The translations under genes were made by a program, and so were the position numbers. 62,582 nucleotides of DNA from Flavobacteriales bacterium (lineage in GTDB: Bacteria; Bacteroidota; Bacteroidia; Flavobacteriales_D; Sanyastnellaceae), in NCBI GenBank assembly GCA_029242765.1, contig JAQWTJ010000093.1, positions 1 to 62,582 on the forward strand, written 5' to 3'. The notes under the pieces are model-generated. The model ran no database searches. It was given only the letters and a program-made list of their open reading frames with translations, and was not told the DNA's origin. Of the stretch, positions 11,337-53,859 are shown in pieces (position 1 is the stretch's first letter; each line of letters opens with the position of its first letter).

Positions 11337-12713
11337 CTACCAGCGTGGGATCTTCAGTTGTTCTCCAGGCCGGATGACTTGGCCTTCTTCTAAGGCGTTG
11401 AGCTGAATCAAATCAGCCGGGGAGATTTCCGGGTAAGCGGCCGCTATGCTCCATAAGGTTTCGCCAATTTTGACGGTGTGAAATGAAAAAGGGAGGCCGT
11501 CTATGTCATTCACTGGGACAGCTGTCTGAAGGGGCTCAACACCATACAATTTCAAGGTCTCACCCAGTGCAATAGCATCGCCTTCCAAGGCATTCCACAG
11601 TCGAAGGTCCGATGTGCGCACCCCGTATTTCCTAGCGATGCTGGCCAAGACTTCGCCGACGAGGACGATGTGTTCTAAGTGTACTGTTTCGGCTTTAGCC
11701 GCTACTTTGGTTACAGGAGGTGATGTTGCACAAAGTTGCTTGAGATTTAAACCGGCCCGGGAGCTGGGTGGCAGCAGAACCGTGGTGCCCGCTGGGATAG
11801 TGTCGGATGTGAGCCATGGGTTTTCCTGCTGGAGCCAGCGACGACTGAGGCCATGGGTGACTGCGGCCGATAGGAGCCATGCGTTGGTGCAGGAACAGCT
11901 GTCTAAACGCCCTTGGCGGATCAACCACAGGGCGTCACTCCGGTCCCAGGCGAGGCTGCGGTCCAGCTGGGCGAGGACGCGGACGCGGTGAAGCGTGTGA
12001 AGCAATGAAGGGGCGGCCGTGGAATAGTGAAAGGAGCGCGCTGTTGCAACGCCTTGCATGAAGGCTACAACCTGCCGCACGGGGTCGTCGGGGAATTGCT
12101 CGGTGAGGGCGGCAATTTTCAGGGCGGCGGCGGGGTGAGCCTCTTGCGGTGTGTGGCGCTGGTCGTAACCCCTGCGGACGACCAGCCCGGCACGCTCTGC
12201 ATCTTTGATGTTAAGTGCCCAAAGCCCCGCTTGCCCAGCAGCTGACCCTGCATTCCCATTGCTGTAGTAGGCTGCGTTGCATCCGGTGAGCGCCGCAGCG
12301 ACATGGATCCACTCGGGAACCAGGCCCTCTTGTACCAGCGCAAGTTCGGCAGCCGTCCGATGCCGATCGGATAGGGTTCGCAGCAGCCGCCAGCGCAGCA
12401 TCCCTTGTGCTTCCAAACCCTGCATGATGCGGTCGGTGTGCCTTGCGGCATCGGGCATCGACTCCATGGCAGTGATGAAGTCCTGCGCCCATTCGGAGGG
12501 TGTGTCATAAGACTCGGCCACGCGGGGCTCAATCGCTGACAAAACGCTGCCAGGCTCGATTGCCTCAAGCTCTAATACCCAAGCTTGATGCTGGAGGTCG
12601 ACCAAGAGACGATTCCAAACGGCTGGTGGAGATTGACCGGCACAATTCGCACACAAAAACAGGCTGCAAAGCAGCACCGTATGGAGCACGTATGATTTCG
12701 TGGGATTCAACAA
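11337..12713 (-). CDS. LysM protein with MltD-like transglycosylase domain lacking the catalytic Glu
   Basis: 458 residues. A signal sequence ends SLFLCANCAGQ. Residues about 128-215 follow the lytic transglycosylase (SLT/MltD) pattern: EGLVPEWIHVAAALTG, SAAGQAGLWAL, then YDQRHTPQEAHPAAALKI. The Glu expected in the ESG motif is Thr143, so cleavage of peptidoglycan is unlikely. Two LysM modules follow (about 345-390 and 412-457, EHIVLVGEVLASIARKYGV and FHTVKIGETLWSIAAAYPE), so wall binding should remain. The start is a TTG at 12713; no in-frame ATG keeps the signal sequence. It is divergent from the hybrid kinase. It may act as a wall-binding scaffold or regulator rather than an enzyme (inference). 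Confidence 0.82.
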   Translation of the reverse strand: MLNPTKSYVLHTVLLCSLFLCANCAGQSPPAVWNRLLVDLQHQAWVLELEAIEPGSVLSAIEPRVAESYDTPSEWAQDFITAMESMPDAARHTDRIMQGLEAQGMLRWRLLRTLSDRHRTAAELALVQEGLVPEWIHVAAALTGCNAAYYSNGNAGSAAGQAGLWALNIKDAERAGLVVRRGYDQRHTPQEAHPAAALKIAALTEQFPDDPVRQVVAFMQGVATARSFHYSTAAPSLLHTLHRVRVLAQLDRSLAWDRSDALWLIRQGRLDSCSCTNAWLLSAAVTHGLSRRWLQQENPWLTSDTIPAGTTVLLPPSSRAGLNLKQLCATSPPVTKVAAKAETVHLEHIVLVGEVLASIARKYGVRTSDLRLWNALEGDAIALGETLKLYGVEPLQTAVPVNDIDGLPFSFHTVKIGETLWSIAAAYPEISPADLIQLNALEEGQVIRPGEQLKIPRW

Positions 12714-12764
12714 AGGCGTGGTATTATCGGCATGCGCCTACGCAAATATGGCCCGCTGATGCCG

Positions 12765-12772
12765 TAATTTCG
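12765..12772 (+). promoter_or_regulatory. putative -7 box of the hybrid kinase gene
   Basis: TAATTTCG ends 6 bases before ATG 12779. This supports that start over in-frame ATGs further upstream (12692, 12500). Confidence 0.3.
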
Positions 12773-12778
12773 GCCTCA

Positions 12779-15184
12779 ATGGCGTCCCATTCTTCTAAAT
12801 CTTCATCTTCAGATTCTCGGGATAGCCCTGAGCGTTTGGAGGAGCTCAACCGCTCATTGGAACAGACCATCGCTCAACGCACGCAAAGCTTGCGTTTGAG
12901 CCAGGCTGAGCTTCGAGATTTGATAGAGAGTGTGAACGATTCTATTTTCACCACGGATCGTGCCGGGCGCATTCTCTTTGCAAACCGAGCAACTTTTCAA
13001 ATGCTCGGTTACACGCCAGAGGAATTGATCGGCCAGCGATTCACCAAGTTTCTTGCACCTGGATTTCGTGCTTTTGGGGACCGCGTCAAAGAGGCTGCGC
13101 GCCGCAAGGATGCCCAGCTTTACGCTGAGGTACAGGTGGTTCACGCAGACGGCACGACCCGCTGGATCGGTCAGAATGTGCGGTTTAAATACGAAGAGGG
13201 CTTCCTGCGCACTGTGCAAGTTGTAGGACGTGATATCACAGCGGCCCGTGAGTTTGACGACACGCTTCGCAGCAGTGAGGAGAAGTACCGTGGCATCATT
13301 GAGAACATGGAGCTCGGCTTGCTCGAGGTCGATTTACACGGCATTGTGGTCCGGGCCTATGACCATTTTTGTGAAATGCTCGGTTACACTGAAGACGAGC
13401 TTATAGGCCGAGATCCCTCCGACTTTCTTCTGTCATCCGACAACCAGGTCGAGATGGAAAAATACATTGAGATGCGCGCCAAAGGCGGTACCGGTTTATA
13501 CGAGATTGGTGTTCTGACCAAGTCGGGTGAAGAAAAACACCTCCTCATTTCTGCGGCTCCGGTCTTTGATTCACAGGGTGTAGTTATAGGCTCAATTGGC
13601 ATACACTATGATATTTCGGAACGAAAGAAAAACGAACAAGCCTTAGCCCGTGCACGTCGAGAGGCCCTTTCTGCACGAGCCGCTGAGAAGGATTTTCTGG
13701 CAAAAATGTCCCATGAAATCCGGACTCCGATGAACGCGGTGATTGGCATGGCTCACTTACTGAAGGATACCGAGCTAACGGAAGAGCAGGGTGAATTTAC
13801 AGAGTCAATTTTGCAGGCCGCCGGGCTCTTGCAAGGATTGCTCAACAGTGTGCTCGACCTCAGCAAGCTAGAGGAAGGCCATATTCGTTGCGAATACCGC
13901 GCTGCTGATTTACGAAACACTTTGCTTGAGGTGTACGATTCGTTGCGGTTCATTCTGCGGCAAAAAGGCGTGACTGTCAGTTTAGATGTTGATGAGGATT
14001 TGCCGCGCTCGTTGAAATTTGACCGGGGCATCGTGTCGCAAATTTTGCTCAATCTTGGCAGCAATGCTGTGAAATTCACGTACAGCGGAAGCATTGTGAT
14101 TTCTGCGCGTTGGAAACCGGGGGTTAAAGGGAATTCTCCGAGCGTAGTGTTGCAGGTGACCGATACGGGTATAGGTATTGCATCGGATCAGCTCGGTTTC
14201 ATTTTTGACCGCTTTCATCAGGTGGATCAAGGTGTGGAATTTCAATCCGGCAGCACGGGCTTAGGGCTTTCCATTGTGAGAGAGCTCGCAGAAATTCATG
14301 GTGGGCGGGCCACGGTGGTCAGTGAAGTGGGGAAGGGCTCAACTTTTGAAGTGGAGTTGCTCGTTCATTTGGCGCACAATAAGGTGTTAACCAATAGTTC
14401 TTCAACAATTGGCTCGTCCTCAGAATTCAAAGGTGTACGGGTCCTTGTCGCGGAAGACAACCCGTTCAATGCGCGCTATGCCACGCGACTCATGCAGCGG
14501 TGGGGCGCTGATTACGAGGTGGTTGAAAACGGTGAGCTGGCCTTTGAGTTGTTCAAACGCAACCGCTGGGACGTGGTGCTTATGGACGTGCAAATGCCGG
14601 CGTGTGATGGCTTGGAATCCACCCGATTGATTCGCTCGTTTGAGGCGTCACAGGCGACCTCCGGTAAACCGAAGAAAGCGGCGGTCATCATTGGCTTGAG
14701 CGCATTTGACTTGGAGCACGACATTATCGCGGCAATGGATGCTGGGATGAACACGCACATTCGAAAGCCGTATACACCTGGCGACCTATCCAAAGTCATG
14801 CGGCAATCACTGAAAGACCTGCCCCCTGCACCTATGCCAAAGACTAAGCCAAAGTCAAAGTCAAAGTCTAAAAAGCGGCGTGAAGATCATCCAGTATACA
14901 CTATGTGTGAGGGGGACGAGGCGCTTTGGCTGGAAATTGTCGAAGTGTTTAAGAAGGGCTGGCCTGAAATTCGAAAGGAAATCCAAGCCGCTTTGAAAGC
15001 AGGCGATGCCATGATGCAGCACCACTCCCTTCATAAAGTCAAACCTTCCCTGGCGATGGTTGACCTCCAGCAGGCTTACAAGCGCAGTGTCGATTTAGAG
15101 GGCAGGGCCAAAGCAGGCGAGAATTTGCCACCGGATGAAGTGGCCTTGCTGGTCGATGAAGTTGATGTATGGGTTGATGAATAG
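12779..15184 (+). CDS. cytoplasmic hybrid histidine kinase, PAS-PAS-HisKA-HATPase-REC-Hpt
   Basis: 801 residues. Order: Ser-rich N terminus and coiled coil (about 15-45), PAS1 (about 43-165, FTTDRAGRILFANRA), PAS2 (about 168-290), HisKA with SHEIRTPMN (His312), HATPase with NLGSNAVKFT, DTGIGI and GSTGLGLSIV, receiver with EDNPFN and MDVQMP (Asp603), a Lys-rich linker, and a C-terminal Hpt domain with LHKVKPSLAMV (His752), the form common in Bacteroidota. No transmembrane segment is seen, so it senses a cytoplasmic signal through PAS. The phosphorelay His-Asp-His is complete within one chain. No partner regulator is adjacent. The frame stays open to 12500, overlapping the divergent LysM gene; the ATG at 12779 is preferred. 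Confidence 0.93.
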   Translation: MASHSSKSSSSDSRDSPERLEELNRSLEQTIAQRTQSLRLSQAELRDLIESVNDSIFTTDRAGRILFANRATFQMLGYTPEELIGQRFTKFLAPGFRAFGDRVKEAARRKDAQLYAEVQVVHADGTTRWIGQNVRFKYEEGFLRTVQVVGRDITAAREFDDTLRSSEEKYRGIIENMELGLLEVDLHGIVVRAYDHFCEMLGYTEDELIGRDPSDFLLSSDNQVEMEKYIEMRAKGGTGLYEIGVLTKSGEEKHLLISAAPVFDSQGVVIGSIGIHYDISERKKNEQALARARREALSARAAEKDFLAKMSHEIRTPMNAVIGMAHLLKDTELTEEQGEFTESILQAAGLLQGLLNSVLDLSKLEEGHIRCEYRAADLRNTLLEVYDSLRFILRQKGVTVSLDVDEDLPRSLKFDRGIVSQILLNLGSNAVKFTYSGSIVISARWKPGVKGNSPSVVLQVTDTGIGIASDQLGFIFDRFHQVDQGVEFQSGSTGLGLSIVRELAEIHGGRATVVSEVGKGSTFEVELLVHLAHNKVLTNSSSTIGSSSEFKGVRVLVAEDNPFNARYATRLMQRWGADYEVVENGELAFELFKRNRWDVVLMDVQMPACDGLESTRLIRSFEASQATSGKPKKAAVIIGLSAFDLEHDIIAAMDAGMNTHIRKPYTPGDLSKVMRQSLKDLPPAPMPKTKPKSKSKSKKRREDHPVYTMCEGDEALWLEIVEVFKKGWPEIRKEIQAALKAGDAMMQHHSLHKVKPSLAMVDLQQAYKRSVDLEGRAKAGENLPPDEVALLVDEVDVWVDE

Positions 15185-15238
15185 CGGGTAATTGGAGATT
15201 AAATCTAATTACATTCAATTTCATTGAGTTAGATTTCG

Positions 15239-15246
15239 TATCTTGC
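15239..15246 (+). promoter_or_regulatory. putative -7 box of the small RNA candidate
   Basis: TATCTTGC is identical to the boxes before the genes at 15382 and 31831. With about 5-6 bases to the start point, transcription would begin near 15251. Confidence 0.35.
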
Positions 15247-15250
15247 TTTC

Positions 15251-15341
15251 GTGGTGAACAGGCACTCTCAACATGTTCGAGAGTCTACCACAGTTGTGAA
15301 TCGTAGAGAAGCTCCTGCAACGGCGGGGGCTTCCCTTTTTT
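15251..15341 (+). ncRNA. candidate small RNA of about 90 nt ending in an intrinsic terminator
   Basis: This gene-free stretch between the hybrid kinase and the exported protein gene has three parts. (1) A TATCTTGC box just upstream. (2) A long hairpin: outer stem GTGGT (15251-15255) with ACCAC (15287-15291), AG (15260-15261) with CT (15285-15286), inner stem ACTCTC (15264-15269) with GAGAGT (15279-15284), and the loop-side palindrome AACATGTT (15270-15277). (3) After a 16-base linker, a strong terminator at 15308-15341. It could instead be a leader or attenuator of the gene at 15382, but that gene has its own TATCTTGC box downstream of the terminator. I do not recognise an RNA family. Confidence 0.4.
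15308..15341 (+). terminator. intrinsic terminator, 11-bp stem and T6
   Basis: GAAGCTCCTGC (15308-15318) pairs fully with GCGGGGGCTTC (15323-15333) including two G:U pairs. The loop is AACG, then CC and six T. It is 124 bases after the hybrid kinase stop and 40 bases before the next gene. Confidence 0.75.
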
Positions 15342-15368
15342 GTGCGAAATCGCATCGGCCGAACGCCG

Positions 15369-15376
15369 TATCTTGC
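15369..15376 (+). promoter_or_regulatory. putative -7 box of the exported protein gene at 15382
   Basis: TATCTTGC ends 5 bases before ATG 15382, predicting a leaderless or nearly leaderless mRNA. Confidence 0.4.
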
Positions 15377-15381
15377 AGACC

Positions 15382-16119
15382 ATGCACGCACCATTTGACA
15401 CCGTCTGCTTCGCAGTTAGGTCTGCCACCTTGTGCTTGGTCGCGCTCCTTGTTGTTCCTCAAGCACGAGCCCAGTTTTCTATCACGCCGACCGACTCCTT
15501 GGTGACATCGGCCCCGGCCGATTCCATTCTGACTATTATGCAGATCGATGTGGTGAACGAAGCCGCAGACTCCGTGGCCTTCACTTGGCGCTTAATCCAA
15601 GAGGTGGTGCCTGAAGGCTGGGATGTAAATCTCTGTGACCTTGGCGAGTGCTACGACGGCATTCCTAACTCAGCCACGATGATCCCCGCCGCCACAGACG
15701 CCCACGCCTACTTGAAACTGCTGGTGAACCCTTTGGCAATCATAGGTGACGGTTTCTGGCATTTTTGGATTTATCCCGAGGGGGATGAGGACGCCAAGCG
15801 CGATTTGTACTTCCGCATGAGCACATATGCGGTTGGCGTGGGAGAATTGGCCTTAGGAAATTCAATCCTGTGGGCGCCCAACCCCTCCTTTGGCACCCTC
15901 CATTTGACCGGTGAATTTTTCCCTCAGACGCGCGTGCAACTCTTCGACGCCGCCGGTCGTCTCTTAGGTACACAACGGCCGACTAGCGGCACATTGAACT
16001 TGACGATGTACCCATCAAAATCGCCTCAAATATTGACGCTTGTAACCCTGCAGAAGTCCTCTTCTGTGCCGGGTGACCGGCGACATGTCCAACGCATTCT
16101 CTTGCTGCCTTCGGAGTAG
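15382..16119 (+). CDS. exported protein with weak T9SS-like C-terminal domain
   Basis: 245 residues starting MHAPFDTVCF. A signal peptide ends VPQARAQF (about 32). The middle, about 40-150, looks like a beta-sandwich (VVNEAADSVAFTWRLIQEV, then the Cys pair in NLCDLGECYDG). The C-terminal 80 residues recall the T9SS type A sorting domain (APNPSFGTLHLTG, then RVQLFDAAGRLLGTQRPTSG), but the ending is irregular and the usual GxYxL step is missing, so secretion by T9SS is only likely. ATG 15382 is chosen over the open frame from 15340 because it gives a clean signal peptide and has a -7 box. The next gene, 36 bases on, is a clear T9SS cargo. Confidence 0.8.
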   Translation: MHAPFDTVCFAVRSATLCLVALLVVPQARAQFSITPTDSLVTSAPADSILTIMQIDVVNEAADSVAFTWRLIQEVVPEGWDVNLCDLGECYDGIPNSATMIPAATDAHAYLKLLVNPLAIIGDGFWHFWIYPEGDEDAKRDLYFRMSTYAVGVGELALGNSILWAPNPSFGTLHLTGEFFPQTRVQLFDAAGRLLGTQRPTSGTLNLTMYPSKSPQILTLVTLQKSSSVPGDRRHVQRILLLPSE

Positions 16120-52417: not shown

Positions 52418-53859
52418 CCCGGTTAGTTTTCCCTGCGATTTGCACCTTTTGTGCAGTGCTGTTTTTGGCTTGTGGCGATTTCACGGCGCCGGCCGACCGG
52501 ATGACGGCCGAGGCGGTGGCCTTGAATGCTACGGATACGACCGATGTGCTGGTCCATCCGAGCTGGTCTCCCTCTGCAACGATTTATGAGATGAATGTGC
52601 GTCAGCACACGGCTGAGGGGACGCTGAATGCGGCCGCATTGGATTTGCCTCGTCTCAAATCATTGGGCGTGGACATCCTCTGGCTCATGCCTGTACACGC
52701 CATCGGCGGCTTGAATCGCAAGGGCGGCGAGAACAAGGCCAACCACATGGTAGAGTTGGGGTCGAGCTCACTGGGCAGCCCGTACTCGGTGCTGGACTAC
52801 ACGGGGCTCAACCCCGACTTTGGCACCTTTGACGATTTTGATGCTTTTGTCAAATCGGCGCATGCTTTGGGGCTCAAGGTGATTCTAGATTGGGTTGCCA
52901 ACCATACGGCATTTGACGCCGTGTGGACCGCAGATCATCTGGAGTACTATTTATTGGATTCAGCCGGTGACCTTCAGCCTCCGCTAGGCACGGATTGGTG
53001 GGATGTGGCCCAATTGGACTGGGGCAATGGCCAGCAGAACGGGCTGTATCAGGGCATGCAAGAGGCGATGGAGTTTTGGGTTCGCGACCACGAGGTGGAT
53101 GGGTTTCGATGCGATGTGGCGATGAAGGTGCCTACGGCGTTTTGGGAGCAGGTGCGCATGGCCCTTGAGCAAATTCACCCCGATGTATTTATGCTTGCGG
53201 AGGCAGAAGTGCCCGAACATCACAACCGCGCGTTCGATATGAGCTACGCTTGGCACGCACATCATTTGATGAATAAGGTGGCGCGCGGGGAGTTCGCGGT
53301 CGACAGTTTGCGCACATACATTGCTCACGAGCGCGAGCGGTTCGGCCCGCACGACTACCGGATGTTGTTCGTGACAAACCACGATGAGAATTCATGGAAC
53401 GGGACGATTGCCGAGCGCATGGGAGCCAACGGCGATGCTATGGCGGTGTTGGCCGGCACGTGGTTTGGCATGCCGTTGATGTATTCTGGCCAGGCGGCCG
53501 GGCTGGCTAAGCGTCTGCGGTTTTTTGAAAAGGACACCATCGATTGGGAGGCTGGTGATCGGCATGATTTCTACCGCACGCTCAACGCACTTCATCGTAC
53601 AGAGCTAGCACTTCAGGCAGGGAGCGGGGGCGGTTTTCCTGAGGAGATTGTTACGGCACAGCCCCATGCGGTGTACGCCTATCGGCGTGCTGTGGAAGGC
53701 TCCCAGGTTGTGGTGCTGATAAATTTCAATGGCAGCGCGGTGGAGCTCGAACTGGAGGGTGAGGACTTTTCTAACCTGGAGCATGTCATGGGCAGCGAGG
53801 ACCCCCATCAGTTGCCGGCCCACGGTTACTCGGTTTGGCGCGGGCATGCATTGGACTGA
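52414..53859 (+). CDS. GH13 alpha-amylase-family lipoprotein
   Basis: 481 residues. The lipobox ends CAVLFLACG (Cys20), so it is a membrane-anchored enzyme, probably periplasmic or on the surface. A GH13 barrel follows: IYEMNVRQHT (strand 1), GVDILWLMPVHAIG, ILDWVANHTAFDA (region I), VDGFRCDVAMKVP with nucleophile Asp, VFMLAEAEV with acid/base Glu, and FVTNHDENSW with the third Asp. All three catalytic acids are present. It should cut alpha-glucans such as starch or glycogen oligosaccharides. It overlaps the parC stop by 4 bases, an odd partner, and prmC begins inside its last 14 bases. Confidence 0.93.
   Translation: MTRLVFPAICTFCAVLFLACGDFTAPADRMTAEAVALNATDTTDVLVHPSWSPSATIYEMNVRQHTAEGTLNAAALDLPRLKSLGVDILWLMPVHAIGGLNRKGGENKANHMVELGSSSLGSPYSVLDYTGLNPDFGTFDDFDAFVKSAHALGLKVILDWVANHTAFDAVWTADHLEYYLLDSAGDLQPPLGTDWWDVAQLDWGNGQQNGLYQGMQEAMEFWVRDHEVDGFRCDVAMKVPTAFWEQVRMALEQIHPDVFMLAEAEVPEHHNRAFDMSYAWHAHHLMNKVARGEFAVDSLRTYIAHERERFGPHDYRMLFVTNHDENSWNGTIAERMGANGDAMAVLAGTWFGMPLMYSGQAAGLAKRLRFFEKDTIDWEAGDRHDFYRTLNALHRTELALQAGSGGGFPEEIVTAQPHAVYAYRRAVEGSQVVVLINFNGSAVELELEGEDFSNLEHVMGSEDPHQLPAHGYSVWRGHALD

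Follow-up and report, generated by a model that had tools for sequence, protein, structure and literature searches.

A conserved small RNA gene of uncultured Flavobacteriales with a candidate seed complementary to mRNA tails

We describe a gene for a structured RNA of about 90 nt and put at roughly one half the probability that it is a stand-alone gene for a trans-acting, base-pairing small RNA (sRNA) with mRNA 3' ends as its partners. An exposed 14-nt stretch of the RNA matches several mRNA tails just past their stop codons, which makes it probable that the sRNA is a new regulator acting by pairing with the tails of messages. Judged by comparison of genomes, the gene is a real family, unlisted in Rfam and kept in dozens of uncultured Flavobacteriales genomes.

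The gene was found in a stretch of 62,582 nt, here called the window, from a Flavobacteriales bacterium (assembly GCA_029242765.1, contig JAQWTJ010000093.1, positions 1-62,582, forward strand; GTDB lineage Bacteria; Bacteroidota; Bacteroidia; Flavobacteriales_D; Sanyastnellaceae). We refer to the window's genus as g1 and to three other genera of the same uncultured Flavobacteriales family as g3, g5 and g10.

Anatomy of the sRNA unit

The unit is laid out in the order promoter box, hairpin, single-stranded linker and terminator (Table 1), and every element listed in a first-pass annotation of the window (box, long hairpin, 11-bp terminator stem and T6) is present in the sequence. A bulge with ACAGGC separates the outer and inner stems of hairpin 1. 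The most informative part of the unit is the unpaired linker, which that annotation had missed. The fold of the unit has -32.2 kcal/mol; relative to 200 dinucleotide shuffles its z is -2.24, and four of the shuffles fold equally well. The score is modest by itself, and it is conservation in relatives that raises the unit above chance.

Table 1. Coordinates of the sRNA unit and its neighbours in the window
Feature	Position	Strand	Basis or remark
Hybrid histidine kinase gene (PAS, HisKA, HATPase_c, receiver; Hpt below Pfam cut-off), neighbour	12500..15184	+	ORF and Pfam
Promoter box TATCTTGC (TAnnTT class)	15239..15246	+	read in window sequence
sRNA gene, predicted transcript, 5' end probably about 15250	15250..15341	+	matches in relatives
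Hairpin 1	15251..15291	+	window fold; covariation in g1 and g5
Hairpin 1, outer stem	15251-15257/15285-15291	+	pairing limited in the window to the outermost 5 bp (GTGGT 15251-15255/ACCAC 15287-15291)
Hairpin 1, inner stem ACTCTC/GAGAGT	15264-15269/15279-15284	+	
Hairpin 1, variable loop, with palindromic AACATGTT in the window	15270-15278	+	
Unpaired linker GTTGTGAATCGTAG (also given as GTTGTGAATCGTAR), proposed seed	15293..15306	+	invariance in 25 sequences; complement in 3' UTRs
Intrinsic terminator: 11-bp stem 15308-15333, loop AACG, T6 15336-15341	15308..15341	+	stem read in window; covariation in 25 sequences
Downstream gene, no Pfam family, own TATCTTGC box 15369-15376, neighbour	15382..16119	+	ORF and Pfam

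A small ORF within the unit was considered and ruled out. A mechanical frame of 84 aa opens at GTG 15251; two of the three frames are shut by TGA or TAG within the invariant linker, and the length of hairpin 1 differs among relatives, so that the unit is not coding, in line with the initial statement that it holds no convincing ORF.

Conservation and covariation of the structure

Over 15 g1 sequences, 98.3% of the cells of the three-helix structure are paired, seven pairs are changed on both sides, and the covariation score is reached by none of 500 shuffles, which do not keep the relatedness of the sequences. The terminator stem shows six pairs changed on both sides in 25 sequences from four genera, and the inner stem of hairpin 1 in g5, which is of other sequence than in g1, shows three (17 sequences). 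When the structures are slid by 1-3 columns they become worse in all three alignments, with far fewer cells paired and a covariation score lower by about twofold or more.

The linker is the most constant element: GTTGTGAATCGTA is invariant in all 25 aligned sequences of the four genera and is followed by A or G, which leaves 13 of the 14 positions that never vary. A conserved structure with an accessible and conserved seed, as would be expected of a trans-encoded base-pairing sRNA, is thus present here.

The two loops are of less use. That of hairpin 1 is not conserved among the 15 g1 sequences; its palindrome AACATGTT, once put forward as a means of loop-loop pairing, is confined to the window and one other genome (G003), the other 13 having different loops, and we drop the idea. 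The terminator loop hardly varies (GCAACGGC, with GCAACGGT in two g3 sequences), and we considered whether it was a motif of its own. Identical or similar loops recur in other terminators (L080, L194, L215), and for this reason the loop is not used as evidence.

Distribution and search for known families

BLASTN gives strong matches in 14 other g1 genomes and in one genome each of two other genera. A covariance model built from 15 sequences (R1) and run over 114 genomes of the family has a match at E <= 0.01 in 53, of which 49 are convincing, namely 15 of 17 genomes in g1, 21 of 22 in g5 (22 in a separate search), 11 in g3 and two in g10. Completeness is 67% and 83% in the two g1 genomes that lack a match. 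Four matches are weak extras (G083, G068, G091, G092), the first two of which were judged to be terminators when read. The pattern TTGTGAATCGTARN{9,13}CAACGG is found in 49 of 399 genomes of the order and is confined to these four genera. One copy per genome is the rule, with two in G106.

A similar pattern in a named collection retrieves 52 stretches, of which 49 come from MAGs titled Flavobacteriales, Crocinitomicaceae, Bacteroidetes, Bacteroidia or plain "bacterium", some of the titles naming marine surveys; the other three (Methanobrevibacter, Dyadobacter and the "bacterium" isolate Tobar14m) are taken as chance. A core model (R2) run over 395 genomes of the class finds nothing strong except the window, and 13 weaker matches, read in place, comprise 10 terminators and three linker-like stretches (L189, L190, L193). 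These three carry the linker with one mismatch and without the sRNA layout; in L190, GTTGTTAATCGTAG lies within a terminator-like inverted repeat. The viral contigs searched hold no match to the sRNA.

None of the 4227 families of Rfam 15, which presumably include Flavo-1, matches the window at the gathering thresholds of their covariance models. The best scores are 21.2 bits against a threshold of 114 for positions 15150-15420 (BSnc120, minus strand) and 22.9 bits against 56 for seven relatives (rsmX), and the sRNA is new to Rfam 15. Searches of the open-access literature returned no paper on a link between SusD, an sRNA and untranslated regions or on sRNAs of Flavobacteriales MAGs, and a broader search, at the level of titles and the beginnings of abstracts, none that describes the present RNA.

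Promoter, neighbours and transcription unit

In 44 of 46 sRNA loci a TAnnTT box immediately precedes hairpin 1, and in 37 of the 46 a TTG stands 19-20 nt before such a box; the window and G003 are exceptions to this spacing, having a box TATCTTG(C/A) and the TTG at 12 nt instead. The main-sigma box of Flavobacterium psychrophilum is described as TAnnTTTG, with a variant class TAnnTTGY (PMC9723704), and TATCTTGC fits this variant class. With a terminator at its other end, the unit may be a gene with its own promoter; conservation and covariation in relatives support the first-pass reading of a structured, independently transcribed sRNA with its own terminator.

We read the neighbours at 21 loci (11 in g1, four in g3, four in g5 and two in g10), using ORFs from a simple in-house caller. 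Upstream, a gene of the kinase cluster is present in 14 of the 21, that is, in all 11 g1 loci and in three of the four g3 loci; the four g5 and two g10 loci have a divergent LysM-type gene, identified by eye, and no kinase. Downstream, the neighbour is an RNaseH-like gene in six of the 11 g1 loci and, in each of the eight g3 and g5 loci, a Polyketide_cyc gene of SRPBCC type, both assignments resting on Pfam matches of g1 members of these clusters. G000 has a gene without a Pfam family there and G003 its cluster mate, both g10 loci have a convergent metalloprotease-like gene (by eye), and the remaining g1 loci are ambiguous or cut.

These changes of neighbour, together with the convergent downstream gene in g10, indicate that the unit is neither a leader nor a partner of the kinase nor part of its 3' UTR. 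A leader, attenuator or riboswitch of the downstream gene would account for a terminator hairpin ahead of a same-strand gene in the window, but there is no constant same-strand downstream gene over the 21 loci, the gene varying by genus, and in the window it has its own box after the terminator, identical to that of the sRNA, as had been pointed out against a simple leader from the start; we consider such a role extremely unlikely. A fragment of the kinase mRNA 3' UTR is suggested by the kinase stop codon, which lies 65 nt upstream on the same strand in the window, and is very unlikely in view of the conserved promoter-like box and of the divergent gene that replaces the kinase in every g5 and g10 locus read. 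A partnership with the kinase is rejected too, the kinase being absent beside the sRNA in these loci. The first-pass description of an sRNA downstream of a hybrid kinase therefore holds as a position in 14 of 21 loci and finds no support as a tie, the kinase being absent also from one of four g3 loci; what stands of that annotation as a whole is the new structured sRNA, without the kinase tie or the loop pairing.

Some further features of these regions deserve mention. The box of the window's downstream gene (15369-15382 region) ends 5 nt before its ATG at 15382, which suggests that the mRNA of this gene is leaderless. In four g1 loci (L013, L015, L016, L018), TTGTGGAGAA or TTGTGGACAA, which resemble a DnaA-box-like or inverted sequence, lies some tens of nt past the sRNA terminator. 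Three g3 genomes share a terminator-ended element with AGTTGTTAGTTAG before a terminator with a GCAACGGC loop (L073:1592-1671, L074:1506-1607, L075:1525-1577), which is possibly a second, related sRNA.

Complementary sites in mRNA tails of g1

We searched for the linker complement, YTRCGATTCACAAY, with wobble allowed. A first pass that tolerated at most one mismatch found sites recurring in g1 outside the sRNA gene, with stop codons just upstream and often terminators downstream. Exact sites besides the sRNA gene number 22 in the 17 g1 genomes and are spread over 11 of them. About 89% of the sampled window genome consists of called ORFs, yet 20 of the 22 sites lie 4-118 nt past a same-strand stop codon, 18 of these within 33 nt, and a terminator, judged by eye, comes directly after the site in 12 of the 20 tails. 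The two others are a leader or intergenic site (G006:C62) and a site inside a coding frame (G009:C358).

The 20 tail sites fall into six gene families, and orthologous sites are not independent. Nine belong to a SusD-like gene (PF12771, E 6e-110), six to genes ending in SGGGQR or similar, which stand upstream of another gene and have no clear terminator, and two to a gene with the Pfam family FAD_binding_3, which we take to be kynurenine-monooxygenase-like. The remaining three are in the tails of groEL and trxA, both named by eye from the sequence, and of a gene for a small protein that matches no Pfam family. These counts leave out one-mismatch sites, among which are some in 3' UTRs (groEL in G007, SusD in G003, the small-protein tail in G001 and G013) and many in ORFs. 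An exact site is lacking in five of the 15 g1 genomes that carry the sRNA (G001, G011, G012, G013, G016); in two of these, G001 (98% complete) and G013, there is a site with one mismatch, placed 4 nt past the stop codon and ahead of a terminator. Sites are present and the sRNA is undetected in G014 and G007, both incomplete genomes.

The SusD-like tails allow orthologues to be compared. The site is present in nine of 11 (with 13 of 14 pairs in G003) and lost in G012 and in G025 of g10; of 1000 permuted seeds applied to the same tails, 993 score 0 and the best reaches 5 of 11. In G000 and G003 the flanks have diverged in length and sequence and the site is retained, within a layout of hairpin, site and terminator that mirrors the sRNA. 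In the monooxygenase-like tail the site is set inside CTAC..GTAG, and this 3' UTR looks conserved around the site between two species (L003 about 1440-1620, G000:C107; L314, G003:C458).

The predicted duplex of linker and site has 14 pairs and -21.0 kcal/mol with the SusD tail and -22.9 kcal/mol with the monooxygenase tail. Upon cofolding the gain is about 13 kcal/mol, and the sRNA hairpins and the SusD terminator stay folded.

Nearly all 3' UTR sites in g1 and g5 have a G, not an A, facing the same U of the sRNA, a G-U wobble fixed across unrelated genes. Plain selection for pairing does not explain this constancy.

Other genera and controls

In g5, nine of the ten exact sites read among the matches listed are in 3' UTRs, and the tenth is inside an ORF (G095). 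Here too sites are found directly before terminators, and the tails are those of trxA in at least six genomes and of a similar type-IX-sorted protein in at least three (Pfam on the G020 copy only). We also read trxA tails irrespective of sites: the exact site is in five of seven in g5 and in one of 11 in g1, where two more have 13 of 14 pairs, and it is absent from five g3 loci (one of them, G114, perhaps the wrong gene), from the one g10 tail and from all nine tails of sRNA-less genomes. Conserved complementary sites in mRNAs of other loci are thus found at the SusD-like gene and at trxA, the latter in g5 and with one exact case in g1.

The family's sRNA-less genomes serve as a control. All 28 sites read, one per genome, lie inside an ORF, including all seven exact ones; among the matches listed, 28 of 37 genomes gave a locus, and the ORFs, on either strand and some of them short (from 98 aa), come from the simple in-house caller. 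Counting sites with at most one mismatch was tried as proof and rejected as unspecific: among the matches listed, the counts surpass the reversed-pattern control in the majority of sRNA-less genera as well, so that raw counts of this kind prove nothing.

Weaker pairing was assessed in a 697-kb sample of the window's genome, several contigs of which (C1, C38, C80, C92, C107) were picked with sites already known. At the lowest threshold the 3' UTRs hold six matches where permuted seeds average 6.6; complementarity at 5' ends is weakly raised, with 14 against 8.4, and 37 of 300 permuted seeds reach as many. From this lack of enrichment we conclude that each genome has few partners and that these turn over; in the window's genome there may be just two tails. 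A weak anti-linker match in the window (CTGCGATTTGCACC, 52433-52446), 15 nt past the stop codon of a 900-aa ORF, is at chance level, permuted seeds giving on average about two such 3' UTR matches in the sample.

The sites could also be something other than partners of the sRNA: a protein or another RNA may bind the linker, and the 3' UTR copies may be a motif in their own right, such as a site of processing or of protein binding, complementary to the linker by coincidence. The constant G-U position would fit this, as would the retention of the sRNA in genomes without exact sites, the lack of a general enrichment of weaker pairing and the absence of the trxA site from the g3 and g10 loci read. 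A 14-nt complement that recurs at orthologues, that two genera share at trxA and that lies on the coding strand in every 3' UTR case is, however, hard to obtain by accident, and we judge this alternative distinctly unlikely. The comparative evidence supports pairing of the predicted sRNA with mRNA 3' ends.

Proposed mechanism and known systems

The data suggest the following course of events, which may serve as a working model:

(i) The 5' hairpin and the terminator hairpin hold between them an unpaired linker of 14 nt, as the sequence shows.

(ii) The linker would pair with mRNA tails over 13-14 bp, and the hairpins of the sRNA would remain folded.

(iii) Pairing would alter the fate of the mRNA 3' end through its stability, its processing or termination.

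(iv) Such regulation could tune a few abundant or cell-surface proteins, namely a SusD-like nutrient receptor, GroEL, thioredoxin and a type-IX-sorted protein.

In its candidate action, the sRNA would either control the tail-bearing mRNAs or be titrated by their tails. The latter would make the terminator-capped tails decoys, and the real targets would be other mRNAs bound through shorter pairing. The layout of the tails is compatible with this: terminators stand directly behind 12 of the 20 g1 sites, as judged by eye, and likewise behind g5 sites, the SusD tail of G000 and G003 mirrors the sRNA, and the monooxygenase tail displays its site between CTAC and GTAG. Strong sites are moreover few, they are at genes expected to be highly expressed, and they turn over as the sRNA persists. 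Sponge RNAs are documented in other systems, such as the decoy QrrX of Vibrio cholerae (PMC9732341). Like QrrX-type sponges and 3' UTR-derived sRNAs, as these are described, the present case involves two RNAs with complementary exposed stretches, and its terminator-capped tails could be decoys; unlike them, it has complement sites in several unrelated mRNA tails. Against titration, no further targets were found and 5' ends in the 697-kb sample are not clearly enriched. We regard a sponge as the main rival, though a rather unlikely one, and direct action on mRNAs through their 3' ends as the most economical reading of the sequences.

A stronger form of direct action can be proposed, in which the family's core sRNA would act wholly via mRNA tails. 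The linker would dock in the gap that separates the stop codon from the terminator in a few mRNAs, a set that shifts (those for the SusD-like receptor, GroEL, thioredoxin and sorted surface proteins). With intact hairpins on either side, the complex would determine how long the 3' end lasts, and there would be no pairing at start codons. This form is tentative, and we are inclined to doubt it. Most known sRNA target sites are near start codons.

In Bacteroides thetaiotaomicron, the FopS family, of 14 members, and GibS are sRNAs with a conserved seed (PMC11697453, PMC7366714), and FopS represses mRNAs of SusC-like transporters (PMC11697453). Compared by description only, they share with the present RNA a host in the Bacteroidota and a conserved seed, FopS acting on SusC-like and the present sRNA matching SusD-like messages. 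The seeds of FopS and GibS belong to the 5' part of the RNA, which is unstructured in GibS, and pair in the region of the start codon (PMC11697453, PMC7366714), whereas the present seed is between two hairpins, its sRNA usually exists in one copy per genome, and the sites are past stop codons. Control of Sus proteins by sRNAs thus has a precedent in FopS, from the other end of the message. Rfp18 of F. psychrophilum, again compared by description only, is a structured, independently transcribed sRNA conserved across species (PMC9723704), as is the present Flavobacteriales RNA by prediction, and one of its predicted target sites is intergenic (intercistronic); it differs in its predicted action on metalloprotease mRNAs through its third stem-loop (PMC9723704). 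Bacteroides, a related group, is described as being without obvious homologues of Hfq and ProQ (PMC7366714).

For the uncultured lineage, the gene provides a candidate regulatory RNA that may control a SusD-like nutrient receptor. If the reading is true, a conserved sRNA with recurring complements between stop codon and terminator would make sRNA control at mRNA 3' ends testable at defined sites.
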